Assembly: GCA_017853885.1 (NCBI GenBank)
Contig: JAFMIR010000015.1
Location: forward strand, 1-64,000
Direction: 5' to 3'
Source of the DNA: Prosthecobacter sp.
GTDB taxonomy: Bacteria; Verrucomicrobiota; Verrucomicrobiia; Verrucomicrobiales; Verrucomicrobiaceae
DNA: 64,000 nucleotides
A program made the translations under genes and the position numbers. Positions 49,782-62,800 of this stretch are shown here, piece after piece; position 1 is the first letter of the stretch; every line of letters starts with the position of its first letter. The notes under the pieces were generated by a model. It was not told the origin of the DNA and made no database searches. It was given only the letters and a program-made list of their open reading frames with translations.

Positions 49782-51446
49782 ATGTCCAAAAACCTCAGCG
49801 CCCTCTCTTTTCGTAAAGGCATCGAAAAAAACGTCTTCGAACGCATGGTCGAAGCCGCCGAAAAGCGCGGCACAGCCGAAACGCACGAACTCGTTCACCA
49901 GATGGGCCAAGATCATCTGTTCGGCGATGCCATCACGCTCGGTGCTGTCAGCTTCTACGACTTCCTGAAAAAAGAGAACGAAGGCAAACAAGTCTTCGTC
50001 TGCAACGGCAGTGCCTGCCTGTGTGCCGGAACGCAGGACAAACTGCATCACACGCTCGAAACGCACTTCAAGAAGGACGAGATTGGTCACATCTGCTGCC
50101 TCGGCCGCTGCCATGAGGGCGGTGCGTTACAGTTTGGAGGTCAAAACTACTCAGGACAGTCAGAGGCCGCTTTGGCCGAACTTTTTAAAACTGGCCGAGG
50201 TGATAGCGAAGATCGTTATGCTGTTGTTTCGCATTTGCAGCCGGCGATTCTGACTGCTGAGTTCAAAGGCATCGAGGATTATTATGCGCCCTTCAAAAAA
50301 CTCATCACAGAAGGCAATCGCGATGCCCTAGCGACCGAATTGAAGGACAGTGGTCTGCGCGGGCGCGGTGGTGCCGGTTTCCCACTTGCCATCAAGTGGA
50401 CAGGCTGCCGAGCGGCTGAAGGGAAAGTGAAATATGTCGTCTGTAACGCCGACGAGGGAGATCCGGGCGCCTACATCGACAAATACCTTATGGAGAAGCA
50501 GCCGCACAGTGTGCTGCTCGGCATGATGGTAGCCGGTTGGTATGCGGGAGCTGAAACAGGGGTGCTCTACATCCGAGCCGAGTATCCCGATAGTGTCACC
50601 ACCGTGAACCAAGCGATTGCCGACCTGCATGCGGCCGGTTTGCTCGGCCAGAACATCCTCGGCACCGGCTTCAATTTCGCGCTGAAGACCATCAAAGGCG
50701 CCGGAGCTTATATTTGTGGTGAGGAGACCGCGCTGCTGGCCAGCATTGAGGGCTTGCGGCCCGAGGTGCGCACGCGTCCGCCATTCCCAGTGAACGAGGG
50801 GCTTTATCGCAAGCCCACTATCGTGAACAATGTCGAAACTTTCGCCAACCTTCGTGCCATTCTAGTGCTCGGCGGCAAGGGCTACGCGCAGATTGGCACG
50901 CCACAGTCCACGGGCCCCAAGCTTCTTTCGCTCGACAGTCATTTCGTGAAGCCTGGCATCTACGAAGTCGCCATGGGCACCCCCCTGCAAGCCGTCATCG
51001 AGCTCGCTGGTGGCTTCAAAACCCAAGTCAAGGCGATTCAAATAGGCGGACCGCTCGGTGGCATTGTGCCGATAAGCTGTGTGGGGCAGCTCACCGTCGA
51101 TTTCGAGAGTTTCAAGAAAGCGGGCTTTCTCCTCGGCCACGCGGGTGTCGTCAGCATCCCAGAGTCGATGCCGATGATCGAATACATCCAGCACCTCTTC
51201 CAATTCACCGCCGATGAAAGCTGCGGCAAGTGTTTTCCCTGCCGTCTCGGCAGCACCCGCGGCAAGGAGCTCATCGCTAAAGCTCGCGGTGACACCACCT
51301 TCAAGATCGACCGCGAACTCCTCACGGATCTCTTGGACACCATGGAACAGACTTCGCTTTGCGCATTAGGCGGCGGCGTTCCGTTGCCGATCAAGAATGC
51401 CATCCAGTATTTCGAGGCGGAACTGAAGCCCTATTTTCAGAGCTGA
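49782..51446 (+). CDS. NuoE/NuoF-like NADH diaphorase subunit, no partner subunits nearby
   Basis: 554 residues. The N-terminal thioredoxin-like [2Fe-2S] domain has Cys74, Cys79, Cys106 and Cys110 (C-x4-C and C-x3-C spacing). The FMN/NADH domain has GRGGAGFP at 194-201 and NADEGDPGAYIDK. The C-terminal [4Fe-4S] site is ESCGKCFPCRLGS plus a later Cys in SLCALGGG. This is the layout of formate dehydrogenase beta and hydrogenase HoxF subunits. No dehydrogenase or hydrogenase catalytic subunit and no nuo genes lie in the window, so its electron donor is unknown. Confidence 0.85.
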   Translation: MSKNLSALSFRKGIEKNVFERMVEAAEKRGTAETHELVHQMGQDHLFGDAITLGAVSFYDFLKKENEGKQVFVCNGSACLCAGTQDKLHHTLETHFKKDEIGHICCLGRCHEGGALQFGGQNYSGQSEAALAELFKTGRGDSEDRYAVVSHLQPAILTAEFKGIEDYYAPFKKLITEGNRDALATELKDSGLRGRGGAGFPLAIKWTGCRAAEGKVKYVVCNADEGDPGAYIDKYLMEKQPHSVLLGMMVAGWYAGAETGVLYIRAEYPDSVTTVNQAIADLHAAGLLGQNILGTGFNFALKTIKGAGAYICGEETALLASIEGLRPEVRTRPPFPVNEGLYRKPTIVNNVETFANLRAILVLGGKGYAQIGTPQSTGPKLLSLDSHFVKPGIYEVAMGTPLQAVIELAGGFKTQVKAIQIGGPLGGIVPISCVGQLTVDFESFKKAGFLLGHAGVVSIPESMPMIEYIQHLFQFTADESCGKCFPCRLGSTRGKELIAKARGDTTFKIDRELLTDLLDTMEQTSLCALGGGVPLPIKNAIQYFEAELKPYFQS

Positions 51447-51453
51447 TGTGCAT

Positions 51454-51921
51454 CTATTGCCTATAAATCAGCACCACATGAGTGGCGGGGCTGGTTTGAT
51501 AGAAGTCGTTGCCCAGCCCAAGCGTTTGAATTTGGGAGCGTTCGACTCCGAGTTCGATCAGGCGCTGGCGTAGCCCCAAGGTGCGGCGTTCACTGAGCGT
51601 CCGAGCATGATCCTCTGGCAGATCGGGTGGTGTGTAGCCAGCGATGAGGTAGCGATTGCTCTCATTCTTTTTCCACTCTGTGGCTAACTTCACCAATTCA
51701 CGATCATGCTCATCGCTGAGATGGATTTGACTGCCTGTAAACTCAAAGGCAGGCGAGGCGAGATGTAACGAGCTGTTCAGCGGGGAACGAAACCCTTCAC
51801 GCGAACCCAGCGCATACACGATGGAGGCATCCTCACTGCAGCTTGAGGACATGTAGGGAAATGGCGAGCATCCGCAGACCAGTAAAATAATGGGGTGGAG
51901 ATGGGTGAGGGATATTCTCAT
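51454..51921 (-). CDS. Pal-like lipoprotein with OmpA-type C-terminal domain
   Basis: 155 residues. A signal peptide ends in the lipobox LLVCGC. The C-terminal part (NRYLIAGYTPPDLPEDHARTLSERRTLGLRQRLIELGV) has the OmpA/Pal pattern for binding peptidoglycan, though the usual GHTD is AGYT, so binding may be altered. It is 16 bases after the TolB stop on the same strand, as in Tol-Pal operons, which supports the assignment. ATG 51921 was chosen at the signal-peptide start. Confidence 0.75.
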   Translation of the reverse strand: MRISLTHLHPIILLVCGCSPFPYMSSSCSEDASIVYALGSREGFRSPLNSSLHLASPAFEFTGSQIHLSDEHDRELVKLATEWKKNESNRYLIAGYTPPDLPEDHARTLSERRTLGLRQRLIELGVERSQIQTLGLGNDFYQTSPATHVVLIYRQ

Positions 51922-51937
51922 CGGGTTCGGCGGCGAT

Positions 51938-53176
51938 TCAGCGCATCCACCGGGGTTCGGTGATGCGGCCAAAGTTTTTCAAAACCGAGCGGCGGGATCC
52001 GGTGGTGATTTCATGGACAAACAGCTCACCATGTTGGGTGTAGCAGAGGTAGCGCCCATTTGGGCTCCAACTGGGGTGCATCGCGCCTCCGCGCTGAATG
52101 ATGCGAGAGGTGCCATTGGGATAAGTTTTGATCGCGACGATCCACTGATTGCCAATGCGCGCAGTGAAGGCCACTTGACGGCCGTCGGGTGACCACTCGG
52201 GATCCGTGGAGTGGCTGTAGCCAGTGCGCCATCGGGAAAAGTGTGCAGGTTGACCTTCCTTGTCAGGCATCTTGACGATATACAGCGAGCTGCCTTGGCC
52301 ATCGTCATTCGAAAAAGCGATATGCCTTCCATCGGGGTGCCATGAGGGGCTGCCCGGAGCTCCGAAGGAATCGCTGATGCATGCGGCGGTGTTGGCATTC
52401 AGATCGCTAACAAAAATCTCTGGGTTGCCAATGAAGCTCATGACGAGAGCCAGGCGTGAGCCATCTGGAGAAAAAGCTGGACCGGCGCTGCTGCCGGGCG
52501 TGTCACTGATCTCGCGTTCCCAGCCGGAGTGAATGTCCATCAGATGCACAGTCGGGAAACCGCTTCGGTAACTGGTAAAAGCAACCATGGAAGCATCGGG
52601 TGAGATCGTGGGAGCTACAGCTGCTAAGCGATCATGGGTGAGCTGTTGTACCTCTTTTCCATCCGAATTGCACACATACACTTGCTTGCGCCCCGATTTG
52701 TCGCTGACGAAAACCATTCGGCTGGTAGCGAGGCCAGGTTTGCCAGTGATGGTGTAAATGATGTCGTCTGTGAGAGCTTTGATGTTTTCATCGAGACCAG
52801 GTGCCGCATAGCTGCGCTCGAAAAGTTGCCTGCCTTTTTGATCAAGCAGACGGCCGCTGACACGTCCACCGATTGAGGAACCCTCCAATGTGAAGTCCAC
52901 TGCCTCATCGTGCGTGGCGACAAAAAACTCACGTGAGTTCAATAGTTCCTCCTGCAGCACGGCGCGGGCGCTTGCTCCAGTGCCTCCGGAAAACACTGCA
53001 AGGCGGAGCCGAGGCATAGAAGTCTTGCTCGCTGCGCTTTCGCCTGAAGAGAGGTGTCGGATGAGGGGGATCTTTCGCCACCAAGCGATTTCCTTGACTG
53101 GTTCCGCGCCCCTTGAAACCGTCGCATAAGCGGCGGTAAAGCCAAGGAGGACGAAAAACATCGCGCGGCAGGTCAT
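51938..53176 (-). CDS. tolB: TolB-like beta-propeller protein
   Basis: 412 residues with an N-terminal signal peptide (about 1-23). An alpha/beta N-terminal domain (LRLAVFSGGTGASARAVLQEELLNSREF) is followed by propeller repeats: RMVFVSDKSGRKQVYVCNSDG, PTISPDASMVAFTSYRSG, PAFSPDGSRLALVMS, PSWHPDGRHIAFSND and PEWSPDGRQVAFTA. These are classic TolB/WD40-like PD40 repeats. TolB links the outer-membrane Pal to the Tol machinery. tolQRA are not in the window. Confidence 0.9.
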   Translation of the reverse strand: MTCRAMFFVLLGFTAAYATVSRGAEPVKEIAWWRKIPLIRHLSSGESAASKTSMPRLRLAVFSGGTGASARAVLQEELLNSREFFVATHDEAVDFTLEGSSIGGRVSGRLLDQKGRQLFERSYAAPGLDENIKALTDDIIYTITGKPGLATSRMVFVSDKSGRKQVYVCNSDGKEVQQLTHDRLAAVAPTISPDASMVAFTSYRSGFPTVHLMDIHSGWEREISDTPGSSAGPAFSPDGSRLALVMSFIGNPEIFVSDLNANTAACISDSFGAPGSPSWHPDGRHIAFSNDDGQGSSLYIVKMPDKEGQPAHFSRWRTGYSHSTDPEWSPDGRQVAFTARIGNQWIVAIKTYPNGTSRIIQRGGAMHPSWSPNGRYLCYTQHGELFVHEITTGSRRSVLKNFGRITEPRWMR

Positions 53177-53626
53177 GATGGAATGAGAAAGGTCAGTCCG
53201 ATATCCTAGCTGGCTTTCGAGAATTGCGAGGGCAGACTCGTCAGGATGATCAGACCTTTGCTAGGGTGTCTAAGATTGGGGTGGCGCTTGATGGTCATCA
53301 GACTTGACGGATCGTTTTGTTTGAGCAGCGACGCATGTTGGTTCAAGGCTTGATGAAAGCCAATCGACGTTTACCCCAGACATTTTTGCAGTTGTTGAGC
53401 CTTGTGTTGAGAGGAGGTGTACGTTCGGCTGGGTCTAGCAAAACAAGCCGCTGCATGAGGTGTTCAAGCGTCAGAGTTATCTCTGAATGCCACTGACTTT
53501 TTGTTGCCAATGTGCTGTGTAACGCATTTAGACCGCATGAACATTGGCCTGCTGGATGCCTCCATGTGAGGGGAATCCTTCTCTCTTCATCTTTCCGATC
53601 CGGAGCGAATGCAGTCGAATCACACC
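53177..53626. other. Intergenic region, 450 bp, no gene recognised
   Basis: Between the tolB start and the pLGIC stop. A minus-strand open frame of 147 codons (53343-53786) spans most of it and runs into the channel gene in another frame; its composition is not family-like. Nothing else is recognisable. Confidence 0.5.
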
Positions 53627-54724
53627 TCAATACTTGAGGGCAAAGACGAGTCCGTTTGTGATGAGCATGGCTCCGTAGGCGATGGGAAATACAATCTTGC
53701 AACGGTGATCCAGAGCGTCCGCGGCAGCGATCCGGTTTTCGCGATTCAATTCGCCCACGATGAGGTTCACGACAATACTGGCGCACATGACGATGAAGCT
53801 GATGCTCACAAAAACGTTGACGGGTGTGAGGTAAGAAATGTGAGGCATGATATCGCCTAGCACCATCTGGTAAGCTACTGCCGTGAGCAGTCCGACGAAT
53901 GAAACACTCATTCGGTCACCCACCGAGGAGCGATCCATCCAGAAAACCGACCAGGATAGAACAACAACCAGAAAAAGGGGCAAGACGACCAAGCGCACGA
54001 TAAAAGCGGATTGACGCTTGACGTCCAACTCGAAAACAAATGCTGAAGTGGATTCGTTTTTGCGCGGTGAGGTTGGCAGAATTTTGTCTGACATGACCCG
54101 CATCCCGAGAACAGTCCACTGGGGAATGCGAACTTCTTCATCGCTGAGTGACGGCACATCGAGAGGGACCATCTTGAGCTCCGATTCGGAGTAGCCGGGA
54201 ATGCCAAAATAAATCCGCAGTTTTTGTGTATCGAAGGGATACTGGCGAAGTTTGAGTTCGGATTTGGCGGTAGCGTTAACCGGTGTGACCAAGATAGCAG
54301 TTCCATCGGGAAGGACGCGAAGGAGAGGTTCACCTTTTTCAAAGGCACCGACGGAATTGAGCAGCGAAACCTCAGGATACCACGATGTCGCGAGTTCGTT
54401 GAATTGGAAGTTTCCTTGGTAAAACTTTTCTGACACACCCTCGGTGGCGGGGTCAAAGGCTTGCCTTTCGTCTTTCCACTGGACGGTGAGAATACCGCTA
54501 AACTCAAATGTTTCGGTGGTTTCCTCGATCTGCACGACGTCGAACAATTGAAAGCCGATGCGGATCTCAATAGGTCTTTGACTCGTCGGCGGTGAGAGCA
54601 GAACAGTTTGGTTCGGAGTCTGTTTCGCGTCGGAGCGGACGATAGCCAAGACGAGTGCGGTGATGATGATCAGAAAAGGGCGCACGGTTCGTGTTTTTTC
54701 GACTGTGTGACTGATGGATGGCAT
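53627..54724 (-). CDS. Pentameric ligand-gated ion channel homologue (Cys-loop family)
   Basis: 365 residues. An N-terminal signal or hydrophobic region covers about 1-33. The extracellular beta-sandwich (about 50-238) contains the signature YPFDTQKLRIYF at 162-173, in which the two Cys-loop cysteines are absent, as in GLIC and ELIC. Four membrane helices follow: M1 about 241-262, M2 about 272-291 with LLTAVAYQ, M3 about 300-322 and M4 about 342-362, with a short M3-M4 loop. The M2-M3 sequence resembles ELIC. It would form a pentameric channel in the inner membrane with a periplasmic sensor. Ligand and ion choice are unknown. It is divergent from the sigma gene at 55106. Confidence 0.9.
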   Translation of the reverse strand: MPSISHTVEKTRTVRPFLIIITALVLAIVRSDAKQTPNQTVLLSPPTSQRPIEIRIGFQLFDVVQIEETTETFEFSGILTVQWKDERQAFDPATEGVSEKFYQGNFQFNELATSWYPEVSLLNSVGAFEKGEPLLRVLPDGTAILVTPVNATAKSELKLRQYPFDTQKLRIYFGIPGYSESELKMVPLDVPSLSDEEVRIPQWTVLGMRVMSDKILPTSPRKNESTSAFVFELDVKRQSAFIVRLVVLPLFLVVVLSWSVFWMDRSSVGDRMSVSFVGLLTAVAYQMVLGDIMPHISYLTPVNVFVSISFIVMCASIVVNLIVGELNRENRIAAADALDHRCKIVFPIAYGAMLITNGLVFALKY

Positions 54725-55105
54725 GGATTGGTCAGAGGGCAGTGGCCCGCTTTATGGACAGCCATGAACGTGTCATTTTAATCCCATCCGACGGAAATTT
54801 GTCAATCAATCAAGCCGGGCTCCAGTGCCGCATCCCAAGACGCTTGCCATTTGCCTCCATGCGCCGGGAGTTCTTCGCCCTTCATCTTCCCAATCCGGAG
54901 CGATGGGAGGTCAGCCAAACGATGATCGAGGCGGAGATCAAGAAGGCTCGGAAGGCGAAGGCGGAGCACTCGAGGGAGAGGCGGAAGGAGAAGAGGGTGA
55001 TTGGGTTTCAGCCGAGTTGATCGGAGGAGACAGGCTTCGATTGGACTCAGCGTTCCTGGGTTGGCAGCCTGCATGTTCCGTGTATTGCTGGCTCGCCACT
55101 TCTTG
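54725..55105. other. Intergenic region, 381 bp, between divergent pLGIC and sigma genes
   Basis: No firm gene. A plus-strand open frame from ATG 54754 to 55020 would give an 88-residue peptide ending in a Lys/Arg/Glu-rich tail (IKKARKAKAEHSRERRKEKR). It might be a small basic protein or chance. The region must also hold the promoters of both flanking genes. Confidence 0.35.
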
Positions 55106-55672
55106 ATGAGCATTCCTATCCAAGCCCTGCGTGACGGGGACGGCCCTGCTTGGTCGTCGGCCTATCCGTGGCTGTGGGAGTCTGGCATGGCCATAGCTCG
55201 GTTGCGGCTGGCCGGGGAGCGTTTTGAGCTGGACCGGGAGGACCTAGTGAGCACCGCGCTGCAACAGTTGATCCGTGGTCTGGTGGAAAAAAAGGAAGGC
55301 AGCTTCAATCAAATCGTCACCTGGGACGATTGTCTCGGCATGATGCGCCACATTGTTCGTTCCCGTGTTTTTGATTTCCTGCGTTCCCGCCAGCGTTCGC
55401 GGGAGGATGCTATGGAAGAGCTGCCGGAGCCTGCGCCAGATTTTAAGGTGGAGGAACGCTTCCGCTTGGATGAACTGCTGCCCGAGGTGGACCGTCTCCA
55501 GCCTGATCCGCCCGTGCCGCAGGTGTTTCGGGATCGCTTCATTGAAGGCTGGAGCACGGATGAGATCGCCGCTCGCCGGGGCATCAACCGCAACACCTTG
55601 CTTACCTATTTTGCGAAGGGCCTGCGCACCCTGCGCGAGCGTCTCACGCGTCTGGAAGGAGGCTTAGCATGA
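55106..55672 (+). CDS. ECF-type sigma factor of the caspase operon
   Basis: 188 residues. Region 2 is recognisable but divergent (EDLVSTALQQLIRGL, MMRHIVRSRVFDFLRSRQRSRE at about 79-100). Region 4 is clearer: WSTDEIAARRGINRNTLLTYFAKGLRTLRERL at 149-180, a helix-turn-helix. It would direct transcription of its target genes. ATG 55106 was chosen because the longer frame lacks sigma features. Its stop overlaps the anti-sigma-like gene by ATGA, which in turn overlaps the first caspase gene, so the three are translationally coupled. Confidence 0.82.
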   Translation: MSIPIQALRDGDGPAWSSAYPWLWESGMAIARLRLAGERFELDREDLVSTALQQLIRGLVEKKEGSFNQIVTWDDCLGMMRHIVRSRVFDFLRSRQRSREDAMEELPEPAPDFKVEERFRLDELLPEVDRLQPDPPVPQVFRDRFIEGWSTDEIAARRGINRNTLLTYFAKGLRTLRERLTRLEGGLA

Positions 55673-56253
55673 AGGACGAACACGACATTTTGCGCGAACA
55701 TGCCGATCTGCTCCGCGCCTTGGAGGAGCGCCCGCTTTCAGGCACGCTTCAGGTGCCGGAGCGCGTGCTCTTTGATTTGGAGGAGACACGGCAAAAGGCA
55801 CTTCAGGCCTGCAAAAGACCGCCAAAGGCCTCATTTATCCATCGCCATTCGGGCTTCCTGCGTCTCGCCGCCGTGCTTGCGCTACTTGCCGCCTTCACCT
55901 GGTTGGTCCTGCCTCATGCGCCCGCCACAGCGCGAGTGGTTATCACCTCGCCGGGAGATGAAACTACAGAGACAACACCTCACATTGCCTGGAACAGCAA
56001 GGACAAGCCAGGACAGAAATACGACGTGTGGATTTTGCCGGGAGGTGCAGACCATCTGACCGCTCCGGCTTTGTTTGTTGCGAAAAGCGTCACCTCGCCG
56101 CTGCGTTTTGAAGACATGCAGCACGTTCCTGGAGTCGGTTCAGTTGCCTTGCAGCCTGGGACGGATTATCAAGTGCTGGTCTGCTTGGCCGATGCCGGCC
56201 GCATGGCCGGCGTTCCGGTTCCATTCCGTGTCAAAGCTTTATTGCCACCATGA
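55669..56253 (+). CDS. Membrane anti-sigma-like protein
   Basis: 194 residues. A charged N-terminal cytoplasmic part of about 60 residues (EHDILREHADLLRALEERPL) is followed by one transmembrane helix at about 63-82 and a periplasmic domain with two beta-rich parts (VVITSPGDETTETTPHIAWNS, YDVWILPG). No zinc-finger HC2 motif is seen. The position directly after the sigma gene with a 4-base overlap suggests it sequesters the sigma factor until an envelope signal arrives. The role is inferred from architecture and location. Confidence 0.65.
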   Translation: MKDEHDILREHADLLRALEERPLSGTLQVPERVLFDLEETRQKALQACKRPPKASFIHRHSGFLRLAAVLALLAAFTWLVLPHAPATARVVITSPGDETTETTPHIAWNSKDKPGQKYDVWILPGGADHLTAPALFVAKSVTSPLRFEDMQHVPGVGSVALQPGTDYQVLVCLADAGRMAGVPVPFRVKALLPP

Positions 56254-57821
56254 TCCCGCGACTACTTTATCTTTGTTGCCTTGTCGGATTCCCTCTGCTG
56301 CTTTCTGCCGCGGAGCGTGCCGCTTTGGTCATCGGGGTGAATCGCTATAGCGCGTTCCCGGCGGACAAACAGCTAAGCAGCCCGGTCAATGATGCGCAGG
56401 ATGTGGCGCAAAGACTCGCTGCCATGGGTTTTGTCGTGCGGGCTCCTGTGCTGGATGGTACACGTCAAGCCATCATGGATGCGAAGCGTCATTTTATAGA
56501 TGAGGCTCGTGGAGCACAGGTCGCTGTTTTCTATTTTTCGGGACATGGTTTTCAGGTGGGTGATGAAAACTATCTTATTCCTTCGGACATGCCCGCGATC
56601 AGTAGCTTCACCGTGCTCAGAGAGAATGCTGTCCAGCTTCGTGACAGTGTGATGGCCGGGCTGGAAGAGGCTGGTGCAGGCACCAAGGTTGTCATTCTCG
56701 ACTGTTGCCGAGACAATCCCTTTGCCGGCCAGATTGCTGCTGCGCTGGGCACTAAGTCCCTGCGCACCAAAGGTGGGGGTGGGGAGATCAGCGGTTATGG
56801 CCCAGGGTTTTTCCTTGCTTTTGCCTCTAGCCCCGGTGCCACTGCACTGGATGGAAACGGGGCACGCAACAGCCCCTTTACTGCTGCGTTGATCCGCCAC
56901 TTGGACGAGGAGCCCGGTGCCAACCTGCGGGATCTTTTCGACGGGGTGAAGTCCACTATCAGCGAAGTTCATGGGCAGGAGCAGGTTCCCTGGGTCAATG
57001 ACAGCCTCAACAGGCAACATGTGAAAGTGCTCGCCAAGCTCATCCCCTCCAACAACACACCAGCACCGCCTGCCATGAGCGAGACGGAAATCGAAAAACG
57101 GGCGCGAGAACTGGCTGCCAAGATGGCGGCTGAGGCATCACAGCCTGCGGCAGACACAGGCGGGCTCTTTACCAACAGCTTGGGCATGAAGTTCGTCTCT
57201 GTACCCGGCACGCAGGTGAGGATGTGCATTCATGAAACACGAAATGCGGACTATGCGGCGTATGCGGCAGCGCAGAGTGGAGTGGATGACGCGTGGCGAG
57301 ATCACGCGGCAGGCAGCAAGGACCAGCATCCCGTGGTGAATGTGAGCCACGAAGATGCTGAGGCGTTCTGCCGCTGGTTGAGCGCGAAGGAAGGAAAGAA
57401 CTACCGGCTGCCCACAGATGCGGAATGGAGTGCGGCGGTGGGGCTCGCGTCTGAAACAGGCCGTACACCGCGGGAGAAGGATGAGAGCGGTCAAGACGCT
57501 TTCCCATGGGGCCGACATTGGCCACCTCGGCCATCGGACGGGAACTACCAAATCAGCGGGGTGAACGATGGCCATGCCGGCACAGCGCCGGTGATGAGTT
57601 TTCCGCCAAACGGGCTAGGCCTCCACGATCTCGGAGGCAATGGCATGGAGTGGTGTCAAGATTGGACGGATGATAGCCGGGTGTTTCGTGTGCAGCGCGG
57701 TGGTTCGTGGCGTGATGATTCCCGTGTCTCTGTGCGTGCCTCTACCCGTAGTTATGGCCGCCCTGTGGAAAGAATGGATTTCCAAAGCTTCCGCATTGTC
57801 TTTGTTAGCGCAGGAAATTAG
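56250..57821 (+). CDS. Secreted caspase-family peptidase with FGE-sulfatase-type domain (1 of 3)
   Basis: 523 residues with a signal peptide (about 1-21). The caspase (C14) domain (about 23-265) has the dyad His99 in YFSGHG and Cys153 in LDCCRD. A short Ala/Glu-rich linker leads to an FGE-sulfatase-type domain (about 308-523) with NSLGMKFVSVPG, YRLPTDAEWSAAV, FPWG, DGNY, GNGMEWCQDW and RGGSWRDD. The two active-site cysteines that follow RGGSW in true formylglycine-generating enzymes are absent, so this part is probably a C-type-lectin-fold binding domain. Likely a periplasmic or surface peptidase. The gene is coupled to the anti-sigma-like gene by a 4-base overlap. Confidence 0.9.
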   Translation: MIPRLLYLCCLVGFPLLLSAAERAALVIGVNRYSAFPADKQLSSPVNDAQDVAQRLAAMGFVVRAPVLDGTRQAIMDAKRHFIDEARGAQVAVFYFSGHGFQVGDENYLIPSDMPAISSFTVLRENAVQLRDSVMAGLEEAGAGTKVVILDCCRDNPFAGQIAAALGTKSLRTKGGGGEISGYGPGFFLAFASSPGATALDGNGARNSPFTAALIRHLDEEPGANLRDLFDGVKSTISEVHGQEQVPWVNDSLNRQHVKVLAKLIPSNNTPAPPAMSETEIEKRARELAAKMAAEASQPAADTGGLFTNSLGMKFVSVPGTQVRMCIHETRNADYAAYAAAQSGVDDAWRDHAAGSKDQHPVVNVSHEDAEAFCRWLSAKEGKNYRLPTDAEWSAAVGLASETGRTPREKDESGQDAFPWGRHWPPRPSDGNYQISGVNDGHAGTAPVMSFPPNGLGLHDLGGNGMEWCQDWTDDSRVFRVQRGGSWRDDSRVSVRASTRSYGRPVERMDFQSFRIVFVSAGN

Positions 57822-57859
57822 TCGGAGTCTGTTTTCTCAAATCCGATTTAGCTTCTCAA

Positions 57860-59548
57860 ATGAAACCCATCCCCCTTCTTCTCACCCTCTTGCTGCTGGC
57901 CTTGACGGCCTTGAATGCCGCGCCGCGGGTGGCGCTGGTGATTGGCAACAACGCCTACCGGGACCTTTCGCCCAGCATGCAGCTCACCAGCCCGGTCAAT
58001 GACGCGCAGGACGTGGCGGCGGCGCTGCAGCGGCTGGGCTACACGGTGGTGGGCGGAGCGGCGATCACGGATGCCACGCGGGAGCAGCTCACGGCGGCCA
58101 CGGAGCAGTTTGCCACGGCGGCACGTGGGGCGGAGGCGGCGGTGTTTTACTTCTCGGGGCATGGCATCCAGGTGGGAGAGGATAACTACCTGCTGCCCAG
58201 CGACACGCCAAAGCTGACCGGGCTATCGATGCTGAAGAACCGTGCCGTGCTGCTGCGTGACAGCGTGATGGTGGCGCTGGAGGAGGCTGGAGCGGCCAGC
58301 AAGGTGATCATCCTGGACTGTTGCCGTGACAATCCGTTCTCCGCGCAGCTTGAAACGGCGCTCTCGCAGGTGGGCAAGAGCGTGAAGACGAAGTCGGTGG
58401 GAGAGATCAGCGGGTATGGTCCCGGCTTCTACCTGGCCTTTGCCACCAGTCCTGGCAGCACGGCGGCGGATGGGAATGGTGCGCGCAACAGCCCCTTCAC
58501 GGCGGCGATGCTCAAGGCGCTGCCGGGCGGCGCGGGCAAGGACATTGATTTCTTCTTCCGGGATGTGAAGGCGCTGTTGCCGGATGACCAGGTGAGCTGG
58601 ACGAACCACAGCATCAAAGGCAGCTTCGCGCTGGTGCCTGGAGCCGCCGCTCCCTCGGTGCCGATGACGCCTGTGCCTGTCGCGCCGCCTGCGGCAGTGG
58701 TCGATCCGCTGGCGGGAGTGAGCAAGGAGAAGCCGCATCAGAACAGCTTGGGCATGGCCTTTGTGCCAGCGGGCACACCGGGAGTGCTGTTCAGCGTGTG
58801 GGAGACGCGGGTGAAGGACTTTGAGGCCTTTGTGGAGGACAGCGGTCACGATGCGATCAGCGAGAATGCGTATGGTCTACCCGCCTTCACGCTGGAGTCA
58901 GGCGCAGAGTGGAAGCAGGCGGGTGGTTCGTGGCGTGATCCGCGTTTTCCGGCGAAGCAGAGCGGAGAGCACCCGGTGGTGTGCGTGAGTTATTTGGACG
59001 CGGAGGCGTTTTGCGCATGGTTGACGAAGAAGGAGCGTGCGAGCGGGAAGATCCCTGCCACGGCCAGTTACCGGTTGCCTACGGATGCGGAGTGGAGTCG
59101 TGCCTGCGGCGGGAGCGAGTATCCGTGGGGGGAGACGTATCCGCCAAAGAGCGCGGATGGGAATTACGCGGGCGCGGAGGCAATGGTGGGAGCCCTGTCC
59201 GGAAGGAGCGGCGAACTGTCGAAGGCGGGTTTCCGCGATGGAGCAGCGCGGACATCGGCGGTTGGGATGTTCAAGGAGAACCGCTTCGGTCTTTATGACA
59301 TGGGCGGGAACGTGTTTGAGTGGTGCAGTACCTGGTATGAAGCCAGCATGAACGAGGCGGACGTGCTCAAGGAATTTCCAGGGCTCAAAAACGACGAGGG
59401 CGGTCAAACCTACCGGGTGCTGCGCGGTGCTTCGTGGGACGGCGTTACGGAGTCGGATCTGCGTTCATCGTTTCGGGGCTTCGGGGACCCGCGCTATCGC
59501 GATGTCGGCAGCGGGTTTCGTTGTGTGCTGGTGGTGGCTGGCGGCTAG
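57860..59548 (+). CDS. Secreted caspase-family peptidase with FGE-sulfatase-type domain (2 of 3)
   Basis: 562 residues, signal peptide about 1-20. The caspase domain has His101 in YFSGHG and Cys156 in LDCCRDNPF, and shares SPVNDAQDVA, RDSVM and EISGYGPGF with copy 1, so the two are tandem paralogues. A Pro/Val-rich linker (about 262-285) leads to the FGE-type domain (about 295-562) with NSLGMAFVPAG, YRLPTDAEWSRACG, YPWGETYPP, DGNYAG, GGNVFEWC and RGASW, again without the catalytic cysteines. Third-codon positions are richer in G and C than in copy 1. It lies 38 bases after copy 1 on the same strand. Confidence 0.9.
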   Translation: MKPIPLLLTLLLLALTALNAAPRVALVIGNNAYRDLSPSMQLTSPVNDAQDVAAALQRLGYTVVGGAAITDATREQLTAATEQFATAARGAEAAVFYFSGHGIQVGEDNYLLPSDTPKLTGLSMLKNRAVLLRDSVMVALEEAGAASKVIILDCCRDNPFSAQLETALSQVGKSVKTKSVGEISGYGPGFYLAFATSPGSTAADGNGARNSPFTAAMLKALPGGAGKDIDFFFRDVKALLPDDQVSWTNHSIKGSFALVPGAAAPSVPMTPVPVAPPAAVVDPLAGVSKEKPHQNSLGMAFVPAGTPGVLFSVWETRVKDFEAFVEDSGHDAISENAYGLPAFTLESGAEWKQAGGSWRDPRFPAKQSGEHPVVCVSYLDAEAFCAWLTKKERASGKIPATASYRLPTDAEWSRACGGSEYPWGETYPPKSADGNYAGAEAMVGALSGRSGELSKAGFRDGAARTSAVGMFKENRFGLYDMGGNVFEWCSTWYEASMNEADVLKEFPGLKNDEGGQTYRVLRGASWDGVTESDLRSSFRGFGDPRYRDVGSGFRCVLVVAGG

Positions 59549-59853
59549 GCTCTTACCTTCTGCTCTTTTTACCTTCTGGATTCTGGATCAGGCCGCGTAG
59601 CGGCAGGAAAAAATTTTAATGAACTCGATTTTTGAATTTTGCAGGGAACGCCATCTGGAAAGCCAGCGGGCCACCTGTGGAAGGAGCTGTCCGGCAGGCC
59701 AGTGCCGCGCATGACGTGGCTCCAAGGAGGCTGTGGTCCTTCACGTGAAAAAAATTCACGATCCCACAATCAAACTCCCGTCTCTGGCGATGGCACCTGT
59801 GAATGCGGCAATCACGCCGCATGCAAACCAAACCATCCACACCTACCGAAGCC
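59549..59853. other. Intergenic region, 305 bp, with a palindrome
   Basis: Separates the first two caspase genes from the small lipoprotein gene. No gene is recognised. It contains a duplicated ACCTTCTG and a 10-bp palindrome (annotated at 59740), so it could hold a second promoter for the genes to the right. Confidence 0.5.
59740..59759. promoter_or_regulatory. Palindrome TTCACGTGAA with adjoining TTCAC half-site
   Basis: TTCACGTGAA at 59740-59749 is a perfect 10-bp palindrome; GTGAA (59745-59749) and TTCAC (59755-59759) form a second inverted repeat with a 5-A spacer. It lies about 95 bases upstream of the small lipoprotein gene. A regulatory site is possible; no T-run supports a terminator. 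Confidence 0.3.
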
Positions 59854-60093
59854 ATGAAAACCATCGCCATCCTTGCCATCGCCCTGATCACCGCCTGTGC
59901 CGCTCCGTCCGCCAAGGCCGATTACTACCGCCCCTACATCACCCACACCTGCGTGGTGCACAGCCGCACGGAATGCCGCTGGGCCACCGACTACTGCGGC
60001 CGCCGCTTCAGCTACGAGGTGAGGGTGGTCACCTACCGCAGCTATTACAGCAACGGCCAGAGCACCACGTTCACCAAAACCTACCGTGCCTGA
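59854..60093 (+). CDS. Small Tyr/Cys-rich secreted lipoprotein
   Basis: 79 residues. A signal peptide ends in LITAC, a possible lipobox. The mature part is short and rich in Tyr, Arg and Thr with three further cysteines (HTCVVHSRTECRWATDYCG). No family is recognised. It lies between the caspase genes and the OmpA-type gene, same strand. ATG 59854 was chosen because it begins the signal peptide; the upstream frame is not family-like. Confidence 0.55.
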   Translation: MKTIAILAIALITACAAPSAKADYYRPYITHTCVVHSRTECRWATDYCGRRFSYEVRVVTYRSYYSNGQSTTFTKTYRA

Positions 60094-60202
60094 AAACGAC
60101 GCGCGTCTGCGGGCAGGCCCGGAAGCTGCTGCACCGAAGGTCGGGGATGGCAGACCGGGCTTGCCAGTCGCGTGCTTTTTGTTCATTCTCCCTGCTGTGC
60201 CC

Positions 60203-60748
60203 ATGAAGTCATCTATCCTCCTGCTCTTTCTCATCGCTGGCAGCCTGCTAGCGGCTGATCCTGCCGTGGTGCCTGCCGCTGATCTGGCCAAGAAATGGAA
60301 GCGCACCAAATCGCTGACCGCGCCGGTGGAAAAGCTGCGCAAGGGGCTGAGCGTGGAGGTGGACGGACGTGCCACCGCTGCGCTGGAGGTGAAGGTGGAC
60401 GCGGACACGGCGTGCAGCTTTCAAAACATCCAGTTCAAGCTGGACAGTGCCGTGCTGGATGGGGCTGCCACCTTTGCGCAGCTGACAGAGATTGCCACGG
60501 CGATGAAGGCGGCCGGGACGGAGCATTTTGTCATCGAGGGCCACACCTGTGATCGCGGGGAGGACGGGCATAACCTGAGCCTCTCCCAGCAGCGGGCGCT
60601 GGCGGTGCGGGAGGCACTGGCCGGTCTCGGCGTGCCCGCGCAGAGGCTGGTGGTGCTGGGCTTCGGCGAGAGCGAACCCGCCGTGGCCAACATCGACGAG
60701 GCAGCCCGGCAGGTGAACCGCCGGGTGCAGATCTTCAGGAAGCTGTGA
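60203..60748 (+). CDS. OmpA-family cell-wall-binding protein
   Basis: 181 residues with a signal peptide (MKSSILLLFLIAGSLLA). After about 80 residues of unknown fold, the OmpA C-terminal domain (about 85-181) has IQFKLDSAVLDGAATFAQL, FVIEGHTCDRGEDGHNLSLSQQRALAVREAL, VVLGFGESEPAVAN and the final NRRVQI. The EGHT motif binds peptidoglycan meso-diaminopimelate in this family. Probably a periplasmic anchor for the neighbouring secreted proteins. It overlaps the next gene by GTGA. Confidence 0.88.
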   Translation: MKSSILLLFLIAGSLLAADPAVVPAADLAKKWKRTKSLTAPVEKLRKGLSVEVDGRATAALEVKVDADTACSFQNIQFKLDSAVLDGAATFAQLTEIATAMKAAGTEHFVIEGHTCDRGEDGHNLSLSQQRALAVREALAGLGVPAQRLVVLGFGESEPAVANIDEAARQVNRRVQIFRKL

Positions 60749-61212
60749 AACGCCATTCGGCCCTTAAACGACAGATGCGAACATTCCTGTGCGCCACTTG
60801 GCTTGCTTTCACTGTCTGCCTAATAGCGTCTTGTGTCGGTGGGCATCGGTATCTATTGCCGGGTCATGCACCCAGTAAGATGGATGGGACACTGCCTCCT
60901 TTGGTGATGCAGCAAGGGGAAACCCGGCCGATCATCTGCGAGTGGGGCAAACCGATGAAGTGGGGCTTCAGCCCAGGACTGGCCTGTGCGGACGAAACCG
61001 TGGCACGCGTGGAATACGAAGACGGCCGGTCAACGTCCGGCACGGTCTCTCTCCGCGCCTTGAAGCCAGGCATCACGAGTGCTTGGTATGTGAATGGCTT
61101 TGCGCCCTCATCGAGTAATCATAAGCTAGAAGCGCATGACATTCGCACCACTTTTGAGGTTCGAGTCCTGCCACCACGACGTTGCGCGGAAATGCTTCTT
61201 CCGCATCCCTGA
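60745..61212 (+). CDS. Hypothetical lipoprotein
   Basis: 155 residues. The start is the GTG at 60745, overlapping the ompA-like stop (GTGA); ATG 60775 is an alternative. A signal peptide with basic n-region ends in the lipobox LIASC. The mature part (about 130 residues) is predicted beta-rich with VSLRALKPGITSAWYVNGFAP, recalling a bacterial Ig-like pattern. Function unknown. One base separates its stop from the start of the third caspase gene, so it is co-translated. Confidence 0.6.
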   Translation: MKRHSALKRQMRTFLCATWLAFTVCLIASCVGGHRYLLPGHAPSKMDGTLPPLVMQQGETRPIICEWGKPMKWGFSPGLACADETVARVEYEDGRSTSGTVSLRALKPGITSAWYVNGFAPSSSNHKLEAHDIRTTFEVRVLPPRRCAEMLLPHP

Positions 61213-61213
61213 T

Positions 61214-62800
61214 ATGAAACATCTTTTCCTAGCTCTGTTCATGGCGGCTGGTGGCATGGCTGCCTTTGGGCAGGATACTCCGCCGCGCACGGCGCTGGTG
61301 ATGGGGGTAGGGGATTATGGTGGGGCGAAGTTCAAAGGCGGCACCATTCCAAACCTGCCCGGCATCACCACGGCCGACCTTCCCGGCATGGAGACCAAGC
61401 TGAAGTCCCTCGGATTCAGCGTGACGGTGGTGACCAATCCCACGCTAAGCGAGGCCAAGACGGCCGTGGATGCCTTCTCCGCCAGGATTAAGGCAAACCC
61501 GGGCGTGTCACTCTTCTACTTCAGCGGCCACGGTGGAGAGTATGAGGGCAAGAACTATCTGATCCCACGCGGAGCAAACATCGGCAGCAAGGCGGATCTC
61601 AGCGACGAGGCGCTGAGCGCGCAGCGGGTGCTCAATGGCATGGAGGAGAGTGGAGCGCAGGTGAACCTGGTGTTTCTGGACTGCTGCCGGGAGGATTTGG
61701 GGAAAGGCGTGGGCGGAGCTGAAATGGCACCGCTCAAGGCGAAGGGCAGTTTCATCGGTTTTGCCACGCGCAGCGGCGACTTTGCCGATCCGGGTGAGGA
61801 AGGCAGTCCCTACACGCGCTTTCTGCTCAAGCATCTGGACAAGCCGGGAGTGAGCGTGGCGGACATGTATTCGATGGTGATCGGCGAGGTAAAGGACTTC
61901 AGCAAGCGGGTGCTGGGAGAGGAGCGGCGTCCCGGGTTCTACTCGGAACTGGACGCGCCGTTTTACTTGGTGCCAACTGTGGGCGCTAAGTCTGTGCCTA
62001 TGGCCCAACCTTCGCCGACCTCGAGATCGCCGGCATCAGGAACGATCGTGAACAGCATCGGCATGAAGTTTGTTCCACTGCCAAGCACTGCTGTCCTGAT
62101 TTGCAGCACCGAAACGCGGGTGCGTGATTATAAACAGTTTATGAACGACACCCAGCACGACATGAGCGCCTCCGCGCAAACTCTGGCGCAAGATGGCTGG
62201 CAACGGCGCGCAGGACAGGACTGGCTGCGGCCAGGTTTCAACCAAACGGATGACCATCCGGTCACTTGTGTGAGCTGGGAGGACGCACAGGCATTCTGTA
62301 AGTGGCTCAGTCGCAAAGAGGGACGCACCTACCGCCTGCCCACTGACCATGAATGGAGCTTGGCGGTGGGTATTGGCGACCGTGAAGCCTCTTCGGAAGC
62401 ACCCTCGGCTAAAGACGAGAAAATCATCGCCTACCCTTGGAATGCTGATTTCCCTCCGAGCATCAAGGATGGCAACTATCGCGGCACCGAGAGCCGTCTC
62501 GGCCACGAGCCGAGCAATTGGACGACACTTGTTGACTTCAATGATGGTTTCCCCCGCACTTCGCCCGTTGGGAGCTTCAAGCCGGGTGTCCACGGTCTCT
62601 ACGACCTCGGTGGCAACGTCTGGGAGTGGTGCGCGGATTGGCATGATCCCGCAGAACCCATCTGCCGCGTCTTGCGAGGCGGCTCCTGGGTCAGTAGTCA
62701 AGCTACCAGCTTACTCTCTTCCATGCGCTTGATTGGAGGTGCGCCAGACACACGCCGTAGTGATATTGGCTTCCGTTGCGCGCTGGAGCCAGCCCCGTGA
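61214..62800 (+). CDS. Secreted caspase-family peptidase with FGE-sulfatase-type domain (3 of 3)
   Basis: 528 residues, signal peptide about 1-19. The caspase domain (about 23-260) has His106 in YFSGHG and Cys158 in LDCCRED, but its sequence differs more from copies 1 and 2 than they do from each other (TALVMGVGDYGG start). A linker rich in Ser and Pro leads to the FGE-type domain (about 280-528) with NSIGMKFVPLP, YRLPTDHEWSLAV, YPWN, DGNYRG, GGNVWEWCADW and RGGSWVSS. Catalytic cysteines after RGGSW are lacking here too. It is coupled to the preceding lipoprotein gene. Confidence 0.9.
   Translation: MKHLFLALFMAAGGMAAFGQDTPPRTALVMGVGDYGGAKFKGGTIPNLPGITTADLPGMETKLKSLGFSVTVVTNPTLSEAKTAVDAFSARIKANPGVSLFYFSGHGGEYEGKNYLIPRGANIGSKADLSDEALSAQRVLNGMEESGAQVNLVFLDCCREDLGKGVGGAEMAPLKAKGSFIGFATRSGDFADPGEEGSPYTRFLLKHLDKPGVSVADMYSMVIGEVKDFSKRVLGEERRPGFYSELDAPFYLVPTVGAKSVPMAQPSPTSRSPASGTIVNSIGMKFVPLPSTAVLICSTETRVRDYKQFMNDTQHDMSASAQTLAQDGWQRRAGQDWLRPGFNQTDDHPVTCVSWEDAQAFCKWLSRKEGRTYRLPTDHEWSLAVGIGDREASSEAPSAKDEKIIAYPWNADFPPSIKDGNYRGTESRLGHEPSNWTTLVDFNDGFPRTSPVGSFKPGVHGLYDLGGNVWEWCADWHDPAEPICRVLRGGSWVSSQATSLLSSMRLIGGAPDTRRSDIGFRCALEPAP

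Follow-up and report, generated by a model that had tools for sequence, protein, structure and literature searches.

The pentameric ligand-gated ion channel (pLGIC) described here is a distant cousin of the animal neurotransmitter receptors. We know of no bacterial pLGIC whose role in the host cell has been established, as was already stated in 2016 (PMC4795631). In GLIC, E35 is the key proton sensor, and roles for D32 and D122 have also been given (PMC5760087). Solute-binding proteins beside bacterial channels were noted earlier by Tasneem et al. (PMC549065).

We analysed a stretch of 64,000 nucleotides (the window) from the draft genome of a Prosthecobacter species, an assembly of 108 contigs, and found a single channel copy in the 4.27-Mb genome. 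Our results make it likely that the gene was acquired horizontally and encodes a functional Pro-loop pLGIC, from a subfamily without a solved member, and that it is located at a rearrangement breakpoint and has no functional link to its neighbours.

Identity and predicted fold of the channel

The ORF at 53627–54724 is a genuine Cys-less ('Pro-loop') pLGIC, with the following features.

53627–54724, minus strand: pLGIC subunit, 365 aa, ATG start (Pfam, PDB and NCBIfam matches, predicted fold)
54626–54724, minus strand: N-terminal leader, residues 1–33, with a hydrophobic helix at 16–30, a probable signal peptide (sequence and model helix; putative cleavage site)
54011–54577, minus strand: periplasmic ligand-binding beta-sandwich, residues 50–238 (Pfam PF02931 at 47–238 and model strands)
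54203–54241, minus strand: Cys-less Pro-loop, residues 162–174, YPFDTQKLRIYFG (P163 and D165 unchanged in all 35 sequences of the alignment)
53849–53932, minus strand: pore helix M2, residues 265–292, with D270 (−1'), S273 (2'), V277 (6'), L280 (9'), A284 (13') and M287 (16') (alignment and model)
53633–53824, minus strand: M3 (301–328) and M4 (332–364) with a 3-residue link (model)

The ORF matched both Neur_chan_LBD (1e-17) and Neur_chan_memb (8e-11) of Pfam beyond their curated cut-offs, and so carries the ligand-binding domain and the four-helix membrane domain that characterize a pLGIC. A phmmer search against the PDB matched 289 chains (best 5e-32), the top ones being GLIC/ELIC constructs, while a profile built from 35 sequences raised the GLIC match to an E value of about 1e-48. 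The AlphaFold2 monomer, predicted from the 35-sequence alignment (pLDDT 88, pTM 0.76), consisted of a leader helix, a beta-sandwich ectodomain and four membrane helices at 239–262, 265–292, 301–328 and 332–364, and Foldseek placed GLIC first among PDB structures (E 2e-26; TM score 0.73–0.76 by query and 0.85–0.88 by target). The identification as a bacterial pLGIC with four membrane helices and a short M3–M4 link, made in an earlier note from the letters of the DNA, was thus borne out, with matches far above the level of chance.

The Pro-loop YPFDTQKLRIYF lies at residues 162–173, and M2 carries LLTAVAYQ at residues 279–286. No cysteine is present in the ectodomain encoded by the ORF, which therefore lacks the disulphide cysteines bounding the loop of animal-type Cys-loop receptors, as had also been noted. 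The Pro-loop proline (P163) and the D/R coupling pair (D165 and R237) were invariant. The absolutely conserved loop proline is shared with NCBIfam NF033918 (LGIC_1) and with the Pro-loop receptors of Jaiteh et al. (2016, PMC4795631), but the channel scored 202 bits (E 1e-59) against NF033918, under its 500-bit cut-off, and falls outside that family as defined. It belongs to a multi-phylum subfamily without a solved member, whose identity to GLIC and to ELIC is only about 23%. The channel is ordinary in kind, a divergent addition to the bacterial pLGIC superfamily, to which it contributes a simple member without an accessory domain whose subfamily has its nearest solved relative at about 23% identity.

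Comparison with GLIC and ELIC

We aligned the channel to ELIC, whose sequence was checked against the PDB, and to GLIC, and obtained 23% identity to each. With GLIC it shares the fold (best PDB matches), the Pro-loop motif YPFD, the E35/D32/D122/R192 gating cluster and the short M3–M4 link, whereas a conserved insertion (approximately residues 101–109, YQGNFQFNE) is present in the channel and absent from GLIC. GLIC E35, D122 and R192 correspond to E71, D165 and R237, and D32 to E68, a conservative change; E71 was a glutamate in 33 of the 35 sequences. In contrast, H235, E243 and E222 were replaced by A282, G290 and G269, so that the M2 pair H235 and E243 of GLIC is missing. The match of E71, E68, D165 and R237 to the GLIC cluster would suit a GLIC-like channel gated mainly by protons, but the three replacements argue against this reading and the kept residues serve gating in general too, so their conservation is no proof of proton gating, which we consider unlikely as the main stimulus.

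The M2 helix of the channel reads G-2', D-1', R0', S2', V6', L9', A13', M16'. Its M1–M2 pattern, the acidic residue at −1' and the leucine at 9' are shared with ELIC, and the −1' residue aligns with the glutamate of the ELIC FSERLQ motif (residue 230 in the PDB sequence), which is taken to be E229 in the numbering of PMC3119659. The ELIC-like pore pattern (D-1', S2', V6', L9', A13') suggests a cation channel, although this is weak evidence because the M2 selectivity motif is in general insufficient in prokaryotes (PMC4795631).

The ligand site of ELIC gave a different picture from its pore. In a single sequence alignment, at 23% identity and with loop C uncertain, no main side chain of the aromatic and acidic amine site was kept. 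The residues that we take to form this site were replaced as follows: F19 by Q59, Y38 by I78, E77 by S120, E131 by G174, F133 by P176 and F188 by T226, with Y175 facing a gap. With these seven side chains differing in that alignment, gating by primary amines or GABA, as in an ELIC-like channel, is scarcely credible in spite of the ELIC-like M1–M2 segment (SWSVFW; TAVAYQ vs TVVAYA). The description of the channel as ELIC-like in the earlier note thus holds for the M1–M2 pattern and not for overall identity or the amine site. Taken together, conservation of the E35/D32/D122/R192 equivalents and loss of the ELIC amine site indicate that the coupling region is standard, while the ligand site is not that of ELIC.

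We propose that five identical subunits would assemble around a central pore into an inner-membrane channel whose ligand-binding sandwich would lie on the periplasmic side. A ligand other than an ELIC-type amine may bind at the subunit interface and/or the ectodomain–membrane coupling region (E71 and associated residues) may become protonated, and either event would open a putatively cation-permeable M2 pore with L280 (9') as its gate.

Origin of the channel gene

The closest relatives of the channel were found in Chthoniobacterales/Spartobacteria MAGs (57–66% identical), while the channel of another Prosthecobacter genome (G038) was 46–48% identical. Two maximum-likelihood trees placed the window channel within the Chthoniobacterales clade with a support of 100/100, and forcing it together with the Prosthecobacter copy cost 116 log units in an AU test (p 1e-57). 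Prosthecobacter and Chthoniobacter belong to different orders, and to different classes in NCBI, and a channel copy of any kind occurred in 3 of the 48 genomes of the genus. The simplest reading of these comparisons is that the channel was probably acquired horizontally from another bacterial order, and we infer a transfer from a Chthoniobacterales-like donor to the window genome, in which case the gene provides an example of a pLGIC moving between bacterial orders.

Old vertical inheritance followed by differential loss of paralogues would fit the sporadic occurrence of channels throughout Verrucomicrobiota. However, a Chthoniobacterales-type copy was not found in the other 142 relatives searched, and both the AU test and the clade support speak against this alternative, which we regard as improbable. 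The GC content of the gene (51%, compared with 56% for the window) was considered as evidence of transfer and dropped, given that its GC3 of 0.60 equals that of the host, suggesting that the transfer was not very recent or that the donor is unsampled.

Neighbourhoods of related channels

None of the window's neighbour genes was found near the channel in the approximately 45 loci carrying relatives. The earlier note had named conservation of the neighbourhood beforehand as the test of its contextual claim, and on this result the claim fails. Among the Chthoniobacterales channels (L022–L026), which share one clade with that of the window, three (L022–L024) are adjoined by a gene for a family 5 solute-binding protein (SBP_bac_5) and not by a sigma factor. 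In these loci, which form the closest clade, the gene lies convergent and 3' of the channel at 27–89 bp.

A sulfatase gene adjoined the channel in 7 of the approximately 45 loci of the first set, on the same strand in L027, L116 and L118, divergent in L031 and L120, and convergent in L046 and L122. An alpha/beta hydrolase gene overlapped the channel by 4 bases in L029 and L115, DUF3604 was beside it in L035, and amidohydrolases and a Na/Ca exchanger were beside it in Halieaceae. As no adjacent sulfatase was present in 10 new, more distant Verrucomicrobiota loci, this adjacency stays a lead and is not applicable to the window's copy. It is highly unlikely that the subfamily is a distinct pLGIC class sensing the products of periplasmic hydrolases, with the window copy having lost such a partner. 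Our literature search found no paper on Verrucomicrobia pLGICs, nor on DUF3604 with channels.

Flanking genes and a probable rearrangement breakpoint

The channel is flanked by the following features.

51454–51972, minus strand: pal/OmpA-type lipoprotein gene, not linked to the channel (PF00691, 3.5e-8)
51938–53176, minus strand: homologue of tolB, unlinked to the channel (TIGR02800, 9e-57; 44 of 48 genus genomes)
53177–53251, minus strand: tolA remnant, a decayed 3' end interrupted by an in-frame TAG, the Tol-Pal breakpoint (homology)
53557–53608, plus strand: second decayed AAA+ ATPase fragment, just past the channel stop (43/52 identical to 54852–54903)
54846–55020, plus strand: decayed remnant of an AAA+ ATPase gene, its 3' end with an internal deletion, between the channel and sigma genes (longer copies at L090 3695–4396 and L087 326–598)
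55109–55672, plus strand: ECF-type sigma factor gene, not linked to the channel (PF07638, 3e-5; TIGR02937, 2.6e-10; orthologues 82% in G010 and 78% in G031)

In the window, Tol-Pal homology ends 75 bp upstream of tolB. In other genomes of the genus (L103, L104), tolB and pal close an operon read as TolQ-TolR-TolA/TonB-TolB-Pal, and the intact Tol-Pal order was found in G028/G040. No match to tolA was detected elsewhere in the assembly (94% complete), and the best match to TolQ there was a paralogue at 29%. The decayed genes on both sides indicate that the channel sits at a breakpoint; in a draft assembly a local mis-join at this locus keeps some residual chance, although genus-type AAA fragments flank the channel on both sides.

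Decayed flanks would also suit a decaying, non-functional insertion, but the channel frame is intact and full-length, 46 of the 48 near-invariant subfamily columns are kept, as in its relatives, and the predicted fold is confident, leaving very little probability to this explanation.

The earlier note was right that the channel and sigma genes are divergent, with 384 bp between them. It considered a shared regulatory region possible and a sensor channel beside a stress operon suggestive, a reading that would tie the channel functionally to the ECF sigma/envelope stress island. Against this, the spacer is filled largely by the AAA+ ATPase remnant, no sigma-70-like promoter was found in it, and the neighbourhood is common to no relative. 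The sigma–antisigma–caspase/FGE island recurs within the genus without the channel: in G031, where 5 kb upstream could be read, the genes there were unrelated, and in G010, where the contig begins 700 bp upstream of the island, the 3' end of the same AAA+ ATPase was present and no channel as far as the contig reaches. A tie to the sigma island therefore has next to no credit. We propose instead that the acquired Pro-loop channel now lies, functionally unlinked, between the truncated Tol-Pal operon and the sigma/caspase-FGE island. The locus warns against inferring function from neighbours, since the sigma and envelope genes would be there by genome rearrangement.

Decayed or partial AAA+ ATPase 3' fragments are scattered across the genomes of the genus, in many cases as a pair of conserved blocks approximately 100 bp apart, and two further fragments occur in the same genome (C94:28114–28386 and C4:68495–68551). 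A 52-bp direct repeat around the channel seemed unique by a strict pattern and was considered as an attachment site, but it proved to be part of this dispersed family, and we make no claim of a mobile element. No RNA family was found within 50000–60000, and the channel had no match in the defence library. The island at 55109–62800 encodes the ECF sigma factor, a single-pass membrane protein (4-base overlap), three caspase (Peptidase_C14)-FGE fusions and an OmpA protein, and the caspase parts of the fusions match the PADLOC caspase model.
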